A stretch of 64,000 nucleotides of DNA from Fuscovulum ytuae. Its GTDB lineage: Bacteria > Pseudomonadota > Alphaproteobacteria > Rhodobacterales > Rhodobacteraceae. The notes under the pieces were generated by a model that made no database searches, was not told the DNA's origin, and saw only the letters and a list, made by a program, of their open reading frames with translations. Shown here one piece after another: positions 23,356 to 50,709 of the stretch; position 1 is the stretch's first letter, and each line of letters starts with the position of its first letter. The DNA is taken from contig NZ_CP124535.1 in assembly GCF_029953595.1 (NCBI RefSeq), forward strand, positions 434,001-498,000, written 5' to 3'. The position numbers were made by a program, and so were the translations under genes.

Positions 23356-23502
23356 GGCGCTGGGCATAACCCAAATTAAGCGCCGCTTTGCCGATGATAT
23401 GGGCAAACGGGGCCATGATATCGCATATCAGGGAAGATGCTGGTCATCTGGCAGCAAGGCGCGGCCTTGGTCTGGTCGCGTGGCAAGGAAAGGATGTTTC
23501 GG

Positions 23503-25620
23503 ATGAGACGGCTTCTGATCTCGACCACGGCATTGTCGGTGGCGTTGACGCAGGTGGCACCGATGCCCCTGATGGCGCAGACGCTGACCGAAGAGGGCAG
23601 CGTGATCGCAGAGGATGGGCGCGTGCTGTGCGAAGGCACGGCAGAGGCGCCTTGCGATCTGGATGCGGTGATGGAACAGCTCGCGGCAGAAGCGGCGGCG
23701 GCAGAAGCGGCGGCGGCAGAAGCGGCGGCGGCAGAAGCGGCGGCGGCAGAAGCGGCGGCGGCAGAAGCGGCGGCGGCAGAAGCGGCGGCGGCAGAAGCGG
23801 CAGCAGCGGCACAGGCACAGGCTGAGGCGGAGGCGGCGGCGGCGGCACAGGCGCAAGCTGAGGCGGAAGCGGCGGCGGCGGCACAGGCGCAAGCTGAGGC
23901 GGAGGCGGCGGCACAGGCGCAAGCTGAGGCGGAGGCTGCGGCAGCGGCACAGGCACAGGCTGAGGCGGAGGCGGCGGCGGCGGCACAGGCGCAAGCTGAG
24001 GCAGAAGCGGCAGCAGCGGCGCAGGCGCAGGCTGAGGCGGAAGCGGCGGCGGCGGCACAGGCGCAGGCTGAGCCAGTAGCGGCAGCAGCGGCACAGGCAC
24101 AGGCTGAGGCGGAGGCTGCGGCAGCGGCTGAGGCAGAGGCGGGGGCGACGCAGGACCCCGGCCTTGCCGAAGCTTTGGATGAGATTCTGACGGAAGAGGC
24201 CCCGGCCGAAGCGCCTGCGGTTGTCGAGGCCCCGGCAGAGGCCCCTGTGGAAGAGACGGTCGTGGATCAGGCCGCGCCCTTGGACGCGCCTGCCACCGCC
24301 GAGGCGACGGCCGAGCCGACCCTGACCGAGGAGGCCCCGGCAGAGGCAGGCGCAGGCGAAGCCGTTGCCGAGACCCCGGTGGAACAGCCGATCCTTGAGG
24401 CGGTTGAGGCGGTGACGGACCCGGCGATCCTTGTCGATCCTGCTGCACCCGAAGCCCCGCCTGCCGAAGCTGTGGAGACCCTGAGCGAACTTTTGGCACA
24501 GCCTGAAGACGTGGCCCCTGCCGCGCTTGAAGCCGTGGTGACCTCGGCCCCGATCGAAACGACGGAAGGTCAACCGGTGGAGTTCGCCCCCGCGGCGGCG
24601 GCGACCGAGGTTGTGGTGCAAGAGATCACCGATGCGACAGCGCGGTCTTCGGCGCAGGATTTCACGGCACCAGCGTCAGCCTCGCTCGCCTCGGCGGCGG
24701 CGGCATCGAATGATGATGGCGGGCTGACCGATTTGCAGAAATTCGGCCTTGTCGCGTTGGGCGCGTTGGCCGTGGGGGCGATCATCAACGCCAACCGCGA
24801 TCAGGTTGTATCGAACACGGGCGACCGGGTGGTCGTGCAGCGCGGCAATGGCGATTACTACATCTACAAGGATGACGACACGCTGTTGCGCCGTCCGGGC
24901 AGCACGGTCAGGACCGAAAGCTTCCGTGACGGATCGACCCGCACGATTGTCGAACGTGGCGATGGCACGCAGGTTGTCACCATCCGCGATGCGACGGGCC
25001 GGGTTCTGCGCCGCGCAACCTATGACAGTCTGGGACGCGAGATCGTGCTGATCGATGATCTTTACCCCGAAGAGCGGATCGACGTGACGCGCCTGCCCAA
25101 GCCACGGGAGCGGGTGATCAGCCTGTCCACATCCGAAGAGGATGCGTTGCTGCGCGCCCGTCTGGCGGCACTGGATGCCGAGGAACTGGGCCGGACCTTC
25201 AGCCTGCGCCAGATCCGCGAAATCCCGCAGGTGCGGCGTTTGGCGGCGACGGTGGATGTGAACAACGTCACCTTCGATTCCGGTTCGGCGGCGATCAAGG
25301 CCACACAGGCGGAATCGCTGGCGGCGCTGGGGCGGCTGATGACGTCGATGATCGATGCAAACCCCAATGAGATGTTCCTGATCGAGGGGCATACCGATGC
25401 GGTGGGGGCGGCCTCGTTGAACCTGACCCTGTCGGATCGGCGGGCGGAAAGCGTGGCGCTGGCGCTGACCGAATATTTCGGGGTGCCGCCGGAGAATATG
25501 GTGGTGCAGGGCTATGGCGAGTCGGACCTGCGGGTGAACACGCAAGAGGCCGAGCGGCAGAATCGCCGCGTGGCGGTGCGGATCATCACGCCGCTGATGC
25601 GGCAGGCGAGTTTGCGGTGA
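23503..25620 (+). CDS. OmpA family protein with long Ala/Glu/Gln repeat region
   Basis: The protein has about 705 residues. A signal peptide (MRRLLISTTALSVALTQVAP...AQ) is followed by about 150 residues of AEAAA and [12 protein letters not shown] repeats, then a Pro/Ala/Glu-rich linker, a hydrophobic segment FGLVALGALAVGAIINA, a YD-like RRATYDSLGREI stretch, and a C-terminal OmpA peptidoglycan-binding domain (VTFDSGSAAI, IEGHTDAVGAASLNLTLSDRRA, GYGESDLRVNT). I chose ATG 23503 because AAGGA is well spaced; 23494 is too close. The repeats probably form a helical spacer through the periplasm. Length may vary between strains through repeat slippage. Confidence 0.85.
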   Translation: MRRLLISTTALSVALTQVAPMPLMAQTLTEEGSVIAEDGRVLCEGTAEAPCDLDAVMEQLAAEAAAAEAAAAEAAAAEAAAAEAAAAEAAAAEAAAAEAAAAAQAQAEAEAAAAAQAQAEAEAAAAAQAQAEAEAAAQAQAEAEAAAAAQAQAEAEAAAAAQAQAEAEAAAAAQAQAEAEAAAAAQAQAEPVAAAAAQAQAEAEAAAAAEAEAGATQDPGLAEALDEILTEEAPAEAPAVVEAPAEAPVEETVVDQAAPLDAPATAEATAEPTLTEEAPAEAGAGEAVAETPVEQPILEAVEAVTDPAILVDPAAPEAPPAEAVETLSELLAQPEDVAPAALEAVVTSAPIETTEGQPVEFAPAAAATEVVVQEITDATARSSAQDFTAPASASLASAAAASNDDGGLTDLQKFGLVALGALAVGAIINANRDQVVSNTGDRVVVQRGNGDYYIYKDDDTLLRRPGSTVRTESFRDGSTRTIVERGDGTQVVTIRDATGRVLRRATYDSLGREIVLIDDLYPEERIDVTRLPKPRERVISLSTSEEDALLRARLAALDAEELGRTFSLRQIREIPQVRRLAATVDVNNVTFDSGSAAIKATQAESLAALGRLMTSMIDANPNEMFLIEGHTDAVGAASLNLTLSDRRAESVALALTEYFGVPPENMVVQGYGESDLRVNTQEAERQNRRVAVRIITPLMRQASLR
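23686..24135 (+). repeat. Two coding tandem arrays inside the OmpA gene
   Basis: Array 1: seven perfect copies of the 15-bp unit GCAGAAGCGGCGGCG at 23686-23790, plus one imperfect copy to 23805. Array 2: nine copies of a 36-bp unit encoding [12 protein letters not shown] from about 23810 to 24115; the third copy is 6 bp shorter and the eighth reads EPV in place of EAE. Both unit lengths are multiples of three, so gain or loss of units keeps the frame. Long open frames on the other strand here are side effects of the repeat. Confidence 0.9.
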
Positions 25621-25636
25621 CTTGACCTAGGTCAAG
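25621..25636. promoter_or_regulatory. Perfect 16-bp palindrome, FNR/CRP-family-like operator
   Basis: CTTGACCTAGGTCAAG is a perfect palindrome immediately after the ompA-like stop codon. Its core TTGAC-N4-GTCAA resembles FNR/CRP-family sites (FNR consensus TTGAT-N4-ATCAA) with a changed fifth base. It could control the candidate small RNA just downstream and, through it or by read-through, the xdhC gene. Protein binding is inferred. Confidence 0.45.
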
Positions 25637-25644
25637 GCGGGAAG

Positions 25645-25771
25645 GGTGAGTCGCGGTTAGTTTCTGACTTATCGGGTGGCCCAACTCCCTTGCACTGCCC
25701 GAATGCGTGTCGCTCCTCCCTGTTCGACACTGCTTGTGCGCCGCGGGTCCCCAACCCGCGGCGTTTTCTTT
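25645..25771 (+). ncRNA. Candidate small RNA with CUCCUCCC loop (cuckoo/CcsR-like)
   Basis: The 244-bp gap between the OmpA gene and xdhC holds three stem-loops in a row. Stem-loop 1: GGGTGG (25674-25679) pairs with CTGCCC (25695-25700), with two wobble pairs, and exposes ACTCCCTT. Stem-loop 2: GTGTCG (25707-25712) pairs perfectly with CGACAC (25725-25730) around the loop CTCCTCCCTGTT. A terminator follows at 25739-25771. CUCCUCCC in hairpin loops is the hallmark of anti-Shine-Dalgarno alphaproteobacterial RNAs such as CcsR1-4 of Rhodobacter sphaeroides. The 5' end is a guess, and no clear sigma-70 promoter is visible. It could instead be the leader of xdhC. Confidence 0.5.
25739..25771 (+). 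terminator. Rho-independent terminator
   Basis: A perfect 10-bp stem CGCCGCGGGT / ACCCGCGGCG with loop CCCCA is followed directly by TTTTCTTT. This is the best-formed intrinsic terminator in the window. It ends the transcript that passes the CUCCUCCC hairpin, about 94 bp before the xdhC start. Confidence 0.9.
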
Positions 25772-25864
25772 GGTTGCTTCCCTGAAGGGTTGCACTTTTT
25801 GGCAGTGGCATCTGGCGGGCCGCCGACGCATGATCGGGGCCGAAACAGGGGAAGGGTGCAGGAC

Positions 25865-26857
<993 letters not shown>

Positions 26858-26861
26858 GCCC

Positions 26862-27863
26862 GTGTTCTTCGGCGAGGTGGCGCTGGAGGCGGCGGAGGGG
26901 GCGATCCTTGCCCATTCCGAGGCTGTGCCGGCGGGGCGATTGCGCAAGGGGTTGGTGCTGGGCAGGGCCGAGATCGCCGCGCTCCGGGCGGCGGGGCTGG
27001 CGCGGGTGACGGTGGCGCGGCTGGGTCCGGGAGATGTGGGCGAGGATCAGGCCGCGGCGCGGTTGGCGGCGGCGCTGGTGCCCGATCCGGTGGCGCAGGC
27101 GCTGCGGCCGGGAGAGGCCTTTACGGGGCGGGTAAACCTGAACGCGGTAGGGCCGGGGATTGTAGAGCTGGATGCGGCGGCGATCCATCGGCTGAACCTT
27201 GTCCATCCGGCGATCACATTGGCGACGCTGGCCCCGTATCAGCGGGTGGTGGCAGGCACGCTGGTCGGAACGGTGAAGATCATCGCCTATGGGGTCGAGG
27301 AGGCGGCGCTGGCGGCGGCCTGTGCCGCGGCGCGGGCGGCGATCCGGGTGCGTCCTGTGGTCCTGCATTCGGCGGGGCTGGTCATGACCGATGCGCCGGG
27401 ATTGGAAGCGAAGATCGCCGCCAAGGGGCGGCGGGCGATCGAAGGGCGGTTGCGCGCCTTGGGCATGCAATTGGAGGGGGTGGAGAGCGTCCCGCATGAG
27501 GCAAGCGCCCTGACGGAGGCGCTGGCCCGCGCGCCGGGGGACATGGTGCTGATCCTGACGGGGAGTGCCACATCCGATCTGGAGGACACGGCCCCGGCGG
27601 CGCTGCGGGCTGCGGGGGGGCGGGTTGCGCGCTTTGGGATGCCGGTCGATCCGGGGAATCTGTTGTTTCTGGGCGATCTTGAGGGGCGGCCCGTGATTGG
27701 CCTGCCCGGTTGCGCCCGCAGCCCGGCCCTGAACGGTGCGGATTGGGTGCTGGAGCGGCTGGCCTGCGGCTTGACGGTTGGGGATGCAGAGATTGCCGCG
27801 ATGGGTGTGGGGGGGCTGTTGAAGGAAATCCCCTTGCGGCCCCAGTTGCGGGAACCTGAGTAG
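26862..27863 (+). CDS. Molybdopterin-binding protein (MoeA/MogA-like domain)
   Basis: The 333-residue protein starts with GTG, 4 bp after the xdhC stop, and is therefore coupled to it. The first half resembles the N-terminal part of molybdenum cofactor proteins found beside xdhC (LAHSEAVPAGRLRKGLVLGRAEIAALRAAG). The second half has an MPT-binding MoCF-type fold: VVLHSAGLVM...GDMVLILTGSATSDLEDTAPAALRAAGG and a final GLPGCARSPALNGADWVLERL. It probably delivers or modifies molybdenum cofactor (for example cytidylylation) for the same client as XdhC. Confidence 0.82.
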   Translation: MFFGEVALEAAEGAILAHSEAVPAGRLRKGLVLGRAEIAALRAAGLARVTVARLGPGDVGEDQAAARLAAALVPDPVAQALRPGEAFTGRVNLNAVGPGIVELDAAAIHRLNLVHPAITLATLAPYQRVVAGTLVGTVKIIAYGVEEAALAAACAAARAAIRVRPVVLHSAGLVMTDAPGLEAKIAAKGRRAIEGRLRALGMQLEGVESVPHEASALTEALARAPGDMVLILTGSATSDLEDTAPAALRAAGGRVARFGMPVDPGNLLFLGDLEGRPVIGLPGCARSPALNGADWVLERLACGLTVGDAEIAAMGVGGLLKEIPLRPQLREPE

Positions 27864-27978
27864 AAGATTTTTCTCGAAAAATCTTTGGACCGCCCCGAGG
27901 GGCGGTTAGGGAAAAATTTTCGGACGAAAATTTTTCGGGTGCGGCGGGGGGTGAAAAATTTTCTGACGAAAATTTTTC
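27864..27978. repeat. Array of AT-rich hairpins with one GC hairpin (cluster III)
   Basis: Four inverted repeats lie between converging genes. 27864-27885 has the stem AAGATTTTTC, identical to a stem in cluster I. 27889-27906 has the stem ACCGCCCC. 27911-27936 has the 12-bp stem GAAAAATTTTCG. 27953-27978 has the 11-bp stem GAAAAATTTTC. The first begins one base after the last sense codon of the molybdopterin-binding gene, overlapping its stop region. Confidence 0.8.
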
Positions 27979-27991
27979 TGTGCCATGAGAA

Positions 27992-28016
27992 AGGGCCGCT
28001 CGTTCCGAGCGGCCCT
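27992..28016 (-). terminator. infC terminator
   Basis: A perfect 11-bp stem AGGGCCGCTCG / CGAGCGGCCCT with a 3-base loop is followed on the minus strand by TTTCTC. It lies 22 bp past the infC stop codon. The AT-rich hairpin cluster III follows directly, so infC transcripts meet several stems in a row. Confidence 0.85.
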
Positions 28017-28037
28017 GCTGCTGTGATCTTGCCCGAT

Positions 28038-49490: not shown

Positions 49491-50576
49491 TCAGGCGAGG
49501 CGGATGCGCGGATTGAGGAAGACGTAGCCGATATCGGAAATCAGCTGCGTCACGAGAACCACGAAGACGGCCACGACAGAGCAGGCCAGCAGCGTGTCGA
49601 TGTCATTGTTGCCTGCGGCCTGAACGAGGGTCCAGCCAAAGCCTTTGTAGTTGAAGAGCGTCTCGACGATCACGACGCCGTTCAGCAGCCACGGGAACTG
49701 CAGCATGATGACGGTGAAGGGCGCGATCAGCGCGTTCCTGAGCGCGTGTTTCATCACCACATCGCGGAAGGCCACGCCCTTGAGCCGGGCGGTGCGGATA
49801 TATTGCTGGGTCATCACCTCGGTCATCGAGGCGCGGGTCATGCGGGCGATATAGCCGATGCCGTAAAGGGCGATGGTCATCACGGGCAGGAAAAAGTTCC
49901 AGAAGGTGATGTCATCCATCGCGCTGGTGGCGGTGCCGGGGAAGAGGGTCTTTCCGGAGATCAGGCCCGCATCGGCAAGGATGGGCGAGATGCCTGCGGT
50001 GGCCGAGGCGAGGAGCGCGATCAGGATGACGCCCGAGACATATTCTGGTGTCGCGGTGGTGGTGATGGCGAAGGTGGACAGGACACGGTCGGTGCGGCTG
50101 CCTTCGCGCATGCCCGACAGCACACCAAGCAGAAGCGAGGAGGGCACCATGACGATCATGACCCAGAGCATCAGCCAGCCGGTCGCGCCGAGCGAGCGGG
50201 CCAGCACTTCGGAGACGGGCTGTTTGAAGACGCTGGATTGGCCCCAATCGCCCTGAAGCACGCCGCAGCGGGCGGGGGCGGTGGCGGGATCCTGGCCTTT
50301 GGCGATGCAGCGGCCGGTTACGGTGCCGTCTTCGGCGGTGAGTGTCCAGCCAGGCAGGATGCCCAGCCATTGGCCATAGCGCATCAGAACCGGGCCGGTA
50401 TGGCCATTGCGTTCAAGCCAGCTTGCGACTGCGGCATCGTCCATCCTGACCGAGGCCTCGGACTTGGCGAGTTTCTCGAGGTTGGGCGGCAGGTTCGTCA
50501 TGTAGAACACGACGAAAGTCAGGGCGAAGGCTGTCAGGATCATGACGCCAATGCGCCGCAGCACGAATGAAAGCAT
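49491..50576 (-). CDS. Peptide-type ABC importer permease, DppB/OppB family
   Basis: The 361-residue membrane protein starts with MLSFVLRRIGVMILTAFALTFVVF, the typical first helix of this family. It has an extended periplasmic part of about 110 residues before the core (GDWGQSSVFKQPVSEVLARSLGATGWLMLW) and the EAA-like loop YIRTARLKGVAFRDVVMKHALRNALI. The gene lies 14 bp upstream of the DppC-type gene. Confidence 0.94.
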   Translation of the reverse strand: MLSFVLRRIGVMILTAFALTFVVFYMTNLPPNLEKLAKSEASVRMDDAAVASWLERNGHTGPVLMRYGQWLGILPGWTLTAEDGTVTGRCIAKGQDPATAPARCGVLQGDWGQSSVFKQPVSEVLARSLGATGWLMLWVMIVMVPSSLLLGVLSGMREGSRTDRVLSTFAITTTATPEYVSGVILIALLASATAGISPILADAGLISGKTLFPGTATSAMDDITFWNFFLPVMTIALYGIGYIARMTRASMTEVMTQQYIRTARLKGVAFRDVVMKHALRNALIAPFTVIMLQFPWLLNGVVIVETLFNYKGFGWTLVQAAGNNDIDTLLACSVVAVFVVLVTQLISDIGYVFLNPRIRLA

Positions 50577-50709
50577 GGCTCATCCTTTCCCGGTCAGGGG
50601 ACGGAAAATCTGCATGGACGGCGCACGCCCTAGGGCGGCGGTTCCGATCTGTCGAAAAGAGGCGATGCGCGGGGGACAGGCCCCCGCGCATCCGATCATG
50701 GCCCGAAGA

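Follow-up and report, generated by a model that had tools for sequence, protein, structure and literature searches.

A predicted small RNA with anti-Shine-Dalgarno loops behind an FNR-type palindrome in Fuscovulum ytuae and other Rhodobacteraceae

The 64,000-nt stretch of the Fuscovulum ytuae genome analysed here (the window) very probably encodes, as judged by sequence comparison, a small regulatory RNA of about 100 bases in the gap between a gene of the OmpA family and a gene of the xdhC/coxI family. Our preferred reading, to which we assign a probability of roughly 0.7, is that this is a stand-alone gene for an anti-Shine-Dalgarno (anti-SD) small RNA (sRNA) that would be activated by FnrL at low oxygen and would block the translation of a set of mRNAs. 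It is directly supported by a covarying structure, by loops that are invariant in the genus, by a box at fixed spacing and by the presence of an FnrL gene in the genome.

The OmpA-family gene (23437–25620, forward strand; PF00691, 64.3 bits) ends with its stop codon at 25620, and the xdhC/coxI-family gene (25865–26857, forward strand; PF02625 and PF13478) begins with the ATG at 25865, a neighbour in position with no functional link shown. Promoter geometry and the match to a covariance model, R2, place the predicted sRNA at 25670–25770 of the forward strand, with +1 at about 25670 and the end in a U-tract. The three stem-loops and the perfect 16-bp palindrome with a TTGAC-N4-GTCAA core that an earlier note had described are borne out by direct reading and by folding. 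All three stem-loops lie 3′ of the palindrome, at 25672–25764 of the forward strand, with CUCCC and CUCCUCCC in their loops and the U-tract behind them. Hairpin 1 (25672–25702) has an 8-bp stem with two G-U pairs (25672–25679 with 25695–25702) and carries CUCCC at 25685–25689; the predicted fold narrows this loop by a CAA/UUG pairing that partly closes it and leaves CUCCC exposed. Hairpin 2 (25705–25733; stem 25705–25712 with 25725–25733) combines six perfect inner pairs with two more past a bulged U and presents CUCCUCCC at 25713–25720. The third element (25738–25771) is an intrinsic terminator, with a hairpin at 25738–25764 followed by TTTTCTTT up to 25771; its loop reads UCCCC in the window and CCUCCCUCC in many other members of the family. 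The minimum free energy of 25660–25775 is −45.2 kcal/mol against a mean of −32.0 for 200 shuffled sequences (z = −3.67), none of which folds as well. The loop motif CTCCTCCC was dropped as stand-alone evidence because it is no rarer than chance (two found in the window, 4.2 expected); the support is the combination of elements together with their conservation, and not the loop motif by itself.

Compensatory stem changes, which the earlier note had suggested seeking in the same gap of related genomes, were indeed found. In a MAFFT alignment of six same-genus sequences, window included, 10 of the 28 pairs of a structure derived from these same sequences are changed on both sides, and 97.0% of alignment cells are paired, compared with 35.7–50.0% after sliding the partners. 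Both-sided changes affect five of nine counted pairs in hairpin 1 (90.7% of cells paired) and two of eight in hairpin 2 (100% paired). Four of five covariation measures were reached by none of 500 shuffles; the fifth, further pair types, was reached by 40 of 500. The loops, by comparison, are invariant in the six sequences: CTCCCTT in loop 1 and TCCTCCCTG in loop 2. One congener (G012) carries CUCCUCCC in two loops, and members next to infC (see below) have CUCCC in each loop region. By analogy with characterised RNAs, such loops are probably able to mask ribosome-binding sites.

The palindrome, CTTGACCTAGGTCAAG, occupies 25621–25636, one base after the OmpA-family stop, and its core TTGACCTAGGTCAA (25622–25635) fits the FNR-type consensus TTGAY-N4-RTCAA. 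The stricter form TTGACN4GTCAA occurs once in the window, where 0.02 occurrences are expected, and the 4.19-Mb genome holds 29 TTGAYN4RTCAA sites against one control site. Among the 15 of these 29 boxes whose flanks were examined, genes matching CoxB/CtaC, 5-aminolevulinate synthase and BchE lie downstream with scores above the model cut-offs; a CtaD match, in a frame cut by the locus edge, is below its cut-off. The genome also encodes an FnrL equivalog (471.3 bits, cut-off 300) with N-terminal cysteines. A putative −10-like hexamer, TAGTTT (25658–25663, forward strand), follows the box by 22 nt; placing the box centre at −41.5 puts this hexamer at −12 to −7 and +1 at the start of hairpin 1. 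A box centred at −41.5 with such a −10 element is the class II FNR geometry. An Fnr site lying 41.5 bp before a start site has been reported (excerpts of PMC5398030). In the window, then, an FNR-type box stands at the promoter distance expected for the FnrL regulon, in front of a predicted promoter.

The spacing holds well beyond the window. In a set of 28 members, all of which have the FNR-type box (although the box served to find most of them), the hexamer 22 nt 3′ of the box has A at position 2 in 26 and T at position 1 in 20. The key A is found in 11 of 13 xdhC-linked members and in all 15 further members, which were chosen by fold and box, the −10 playing no part in their search. The proposal of the earlier note that an FNR/CRP-type regulator acts here thus gains from the fit of the box, the FnrL gene and the fixed spacing. 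In Rhodobacter sphaeroides, the available excerpts of one study report FnrL ChIP sites at RSs0019 and RSs2461 and describe for CrpK a motif very similar to that of FnrL, with 23 of 38 CrpK sites common to both proteins (PMC4263372). By analogy, therefore, another Crp/Fnr protein, such as CrpK, may use the window box.

Conservation in the genus separates the RNA from its neighbours. At the thresholds used, XdhC and OmpA genes are present in the same 16 of 19 genomes. Six congeners (G000, G005, G008, G010, G012 and G014) carry box and hairpins, and in each of them the box begins one base past the stop codon of OmpA. From the other ten with ompA and xdhC (G001, G002, G004, G006, G007, G009, G013, G015, G016 and G018) the box is absent, and a motif scan with inspection by eye of the 360 or 700 nt that follow OmpA showed no CUCCC hairpins there; G015 has one stray CTCCCT, and in some box-less congeners a terminator-like hairpin alone, recognised by eye, remains after ompA. 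R1, a covariance model of the RNA alone, scores 92–108 bits in six genomes of the genus and does not exceed 29 bits elsewhere among the matches listed; the remaining congeners therefore look like losses or absences, not relocation. With E ≤ 0.01 as the limit, BLASTN reached 5 of 148 genomes, among them our own and one with a chance match, and failed to detect the members in G005 and G014.

We also compared 83 regions upstream of xdhC (the best 80 of 161 relatives, the window and two congeners). Among the 78 regions of at least 400 nt, 12 have both the TTGAYN4RTCAA box and CTCCYT, one (L065) has the box only, five have the loop motif only and 60 have neither (Fisher p = 1.7e-9, a value that overstates independence, the genomes being related). 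Ten of the 12 have the motif 30–110 nt away on the 3′ side of the box; the exceptions are L058 and L060, whose motif is farther off, in the terminator loop. Some xdhC-linked members are atypical: the loop of L065 is degenerate and its −10 poor, L060 needs a 1-nt shift for its −10, and hairpin 2 is without the motif in L068 and L085. Box and hairpins look as if they are gained or lost as one unit, and since they are present or absent together while xdhC stays, xdhC does without them. Relatives that keep xdhC and lack both stems and loop, which the earlier note had listed as evidence against its reading, thus do exist; they undo the proposed tie to xdhC and the molybdo-enzyme genes, and the RNA reading survives them because the presence of the hairpins is largely coupled to that of the box.

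A survey of 394 family genomes places the RNA in a wider family. R1, run at E ≤ 0.01 with strict filters and 10 candidates scored per genome, and hence insensitive, matched 21 genomes, 20 of them besides our own. TTGAYN4RTCAA stands within 140 nt upstream of 11 of these 20 matches, where about 0.02 are expected from the site density of the F. ytuae genome. Most of the nine without a box resemble chance terminators; L184 (genome G075) and L197 (G424), with C-rich loops and no FNR-type box within 140 nt upstream, are possible members under another promoter. The pattern of a box plus two CTCCC was found in 21 of the 394 genomes (control, 1), which fold inspection sorted into 14 members (own included), one SorX-like case and six chance-like cases. 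The union of both searches gives box-plus-structure members in 17 genomes, own included, each of a different genus; G296, G293, G437 and G354 are the least clean. In the fetched flanks, seven of the 17 adjoin infC on the opposite strand with no xdhC, which likewise goes against the tie to xdhC, six adjoin xdhC (two with OmpA), one OmpA only and three none of these. The window, too, has infC, about 2.3 kb further downstream, and the infC-, xdhC- and ompA-linked members may share one ancestral neighbourhood.

Model R2 was built from eight survey members, none of them xdhC-linked and with the window sequence excluded, and was tested on 24 chosen sources, in which it finds the window RNA at 25669–25773 with E 3.1e-6; in its alignment, too, 10 of 28 predicted pairs are changed on both sides. 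Its scores for L065, L068 and L085 are weak or not significant (E 0.036, 0.15 and 0.16). Six named genomes, Cereibacter changlensis among them, gave five weak matches (best E 9.6e-4), none with a box and none a credible member. A search with a fixed −10 pattern (23 of 198 genomes; control, 1) was not counted, as 13 of its 25 matches look SorX-like.

How does the window RNA relate to known anti-SD RNAs? At gathering score, the Rfam scan returned nothing at the sRNA locus, and ten members besides the window gave zero Rfam matches at E ≤ 0.5. Of the Rfam models, ar14 (RF02344) matches the window RNA best (E 6.4e-4 in 281 bases), with 29.3 bits where the gathering score is 58.8. In the same genome, four DUF1127-linked units also miss this score (53.2, 51.5, 45.7 and 28.0 bits), so the ar14 test is insensitive in the genus; a genome-wide ar14 scan, in which 150 of 277 candidates were scored, did not have the window RNA among the matches listed. 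As excerpted, ar14-type RNAs have two to four hairpins with similar CCUCCUCCC loops and variable stems (PMC3927594), and the ar14 RNA NfeR1, which LsrB activates and NtrC represses, silences ntrB through its loop motifs (PMC10746234). The window RNA shares with them three hairpins, anti-SD loop motifs and fast-changing stems with conserved loops (PMC10746234, PMC3927594), but CCUCCUCCC is not present in every loop (the loops read CUCCC, CUCCUCCC and UCCCC), its loop motifs CUCCC and CUCCUCCC are shorter, and it has an FNR-type box where NfeR1 is under LsrB and NtrC.

The hairpins of CcsR RNAs expose C-rich anti-SD loops and end with a terminator, features that the window RNA shares. Its setting is different: CcsR1–4 come after the DUF1127 gene ccaF1, are driven by an RpoHI/RpoHII promoter and are excised by RNase E (excerpts of PMC10253847), whereas the window RNA is a stand-alone unit with an FNR-type box between OmpA- and XdhC-family genes, outside any tandem array. 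The earlier claim of a stand-alone anti-SD sRNA candidate outside the DUF1127 setting is supported by covariation and invariant loops; of the kinship with cuckoo/CcsR RNAs, the layout and the variable stems with conserved loops stand, while the Rfam score and the missing DUF1127 neighbour do not fit. The window RNA thus appears to be built like ar14/CcsR ("cuckoo") RNAs, group membership not being established. The canonical CcsR setting is present elsewhere in the genome, as four ar14-like units (L014, L016, L019 and L015) behind a DUF1127 gene (PF06568) at C1:1608788–1609236; the window RNA is therefore a gene distinct from them. Two further ar14-like RNAs lie directly after an ammonium transporter gene (PF00909; L017, C1:3196342–3196463, 44.4 bits) and after an ABC-transporter ATPase gene (PF00005; L018, C2:16703–16826, 28.4 bits). 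From −300 to +60 nt of their starts, the four array units and these two RNAs have no FNR-type box.

The SorX model (RF02784), whose gathering score is 46.6, gives the window RNA 13.1 bits. The two have in common an anti-SD motif, CCUCCCUG in SorX, and the SorX relatives found here carry the same box, but SorX has a 73-position model, a single-stranded motif and other hairpins. The FnrL ChIP site RSs2461 is presumably SorX. SorX-like sRNAs with a TTGAYN4RTCAA box occur in 13 family genomes (L138–L146 and L151–L154), found by a search pattern into which the 22-nt spacing to A was built; four of five tested score above the SorX gathering score, and L153 below it.

Two rival readings attach the hairpins to a neighbouring gene. 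If the box served as the xdhC promoter site, the hairpins would form a 5′ leader or attenuator of that gene; this accords with xdhC lying downstream on the same strand, yet a strong terminator stands between box and gene, the seven infC-type members have an opposite-strand gene downstream, and most congeners with xdhC have no box. Furthermore, a TTTTGCCARTGGC-like element precedes xdhC (about 25797–25810 in the window) in 19 of the 83 upstream regions, 57–88 nt before the gene in the 12 listed; 12 of the 19 belong to the 70 box-less regions, so xdhC may own a promoter there, and the element is a possible xdhC promoter or operator. We therefore regard the leader reading as very improbable. Slightly less so, but still unlikely, is an RNase E-processed 3′-UTR fragment of the ompA mRNA with no promoter of its own. 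The RNA does lie directly 3′ of the OmpA gene, the terminator-like hairpin retained in some congeners would fit, and CcsR1–4 and SorX are processed from longer transcripts (excerpts of PMC8307010 and PMC6238624); against this, the box is present in 28 of 28 members, most of them found with its help, and the −10-like A recurs at the same spacing also where the fetched flank has no OmpA gene.

The other two concern known RNAs. A CcsR/cuckoo unit of the canonical kind, driven by an RpoH-type promoter and moved away from the DUF1127 array, would explain the loops, the three-hairpin layout, ar14 as the best Rfam match and the fact that R1 and R2 both reach the ar14-like L017 (E 0.0083 and 3.6e-4); the score under the gathering threshold, the missing DUF1127 neighbour, the presence of an FNR-type box and the array that the genome retains elsewhere without a box leave it, too, with very little probability. 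Orthology with PcrZ of R. sphaeroides is also unlikely, if a little less so. As far as the excerpts go, PcrZ has 136 nt and its own promoter (PMC6238624), the infC-type members having 122–129 nt as cut for comparison, and it is induced at low oxygen via PrrA and FnrL, FnrL perhaps acting indirectly (PMC8139620). A CrpK ChIP site at chr1 2565800–2566399 (RSP_0820), not among the FnrL-free sites (PMC4263372), overlaps the PcrZ 5′ end at 2,565,820 (PMC6238624). The neighbour of the RSP_0820 site, however, is a gene for cytochrome b561 and none of ompA, xdhC and infC, and C. changlensis has no credible family match (best E 0.784); by eye, no cytochrome b561 was recognised in the beginnings of frames beside members at four of the 17 loci. 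Going by their descriptions, PcrZ and the window RNA are alike as sRNAs of roughly similar length, with PrrA- and FnrL-dependent low-oxygen expression on the PcrZ side, and differ in gene neighbourhood.

In the preferred reading of a stand-alone, FnrL-activated sRNA, FnrL with an intact Fe-S cluster would bind the palindrome at 25622–25635, centred at −41.5, under low oxygen and would activate a weak promoter with the −10-like TAGTTT. Transcription would start at about 25670 and be halted by the terminator at about 25770, giving an RNA of about 100 nt whose CUCCC and CUCCUCCC loops would pair with purine-rich Shine-Dalgarno sequences. Because NfeR1 loops silence ntrB, we suppose by analogy that this pairing would keep a set of mRNAs from being translated when oxygen is low. 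Transcription, FnrL binding, the action of the loops on ribosome-binding sites and the targets are what we infer here. In E. coli the FNR regulon includes the sRNA FnrS, which represses many mRNAs in anaerobic cells (excerpts of PMC8139620) and which the window RNA would resemble in its predicted FNR-type control; no FnrS match to the window RNA is among the Rfam matches at E ≤ 10. In the parts of the literature covered, from which the original cuckoo and CcsR papers fall out, we found no description of a multi-hairpin anti-SD RNA with an FnrL box: FnrL-linked sRNAs are already known, and new here would be the combination of an FnrL-type box with a multi-hairpin anti-SD RNA.

That some relatives keep switch and RNA together suggests, in so far as sequence can tell, that a known RNA type has a new branch under oxygen control. 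The wider proposition, which we hold to be evenly balanced, is that the Rhodobacteraceae have an old sRNA family whose multi-hairpin anti-SD RNAs are driven directly by FnrL, a low-oxygen counterpart of FnrS in cuckoo design that lowers translation of many mRNAs as oxygen falls. The known wiring of anti-SD RNAs runs to nitrogen control for the ar14 type (NfeR1) and to the RpoHI/RpoHII stress promoter for CcsR1–4. Wiring to FnrL would provide a post-transcriptional arm of the oxygen response in bacteria such as this one, whose FnrL-type boxes precede tetrapyrrole, bacteriochlorophyll and respiration genes; if the wider proposition is true, FnrL would have, with SorX counted in, a general output arm made up of anti-SD RNAs.

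Some further features of the window were recorded. A GTG frame is open across the RNA region into xdhC; an N-terminal extension of XdhC was rejected, as the frame in G010 begins at the ATG and orthologues show single-base gaps. Short inverted AT-rich repeats (gaaaaattttc-like) lie at 27863–28030, between a MoCF-domain gene and infC. Finally, a match to Rfam Cis52_sRNA (129.1 bits) at 49736–49912 runs antisense within the frame of a transporter permease (49494–50579, reverse strand; PF00528) and may be due to conserved coding sequence or mark an antisense RNA.
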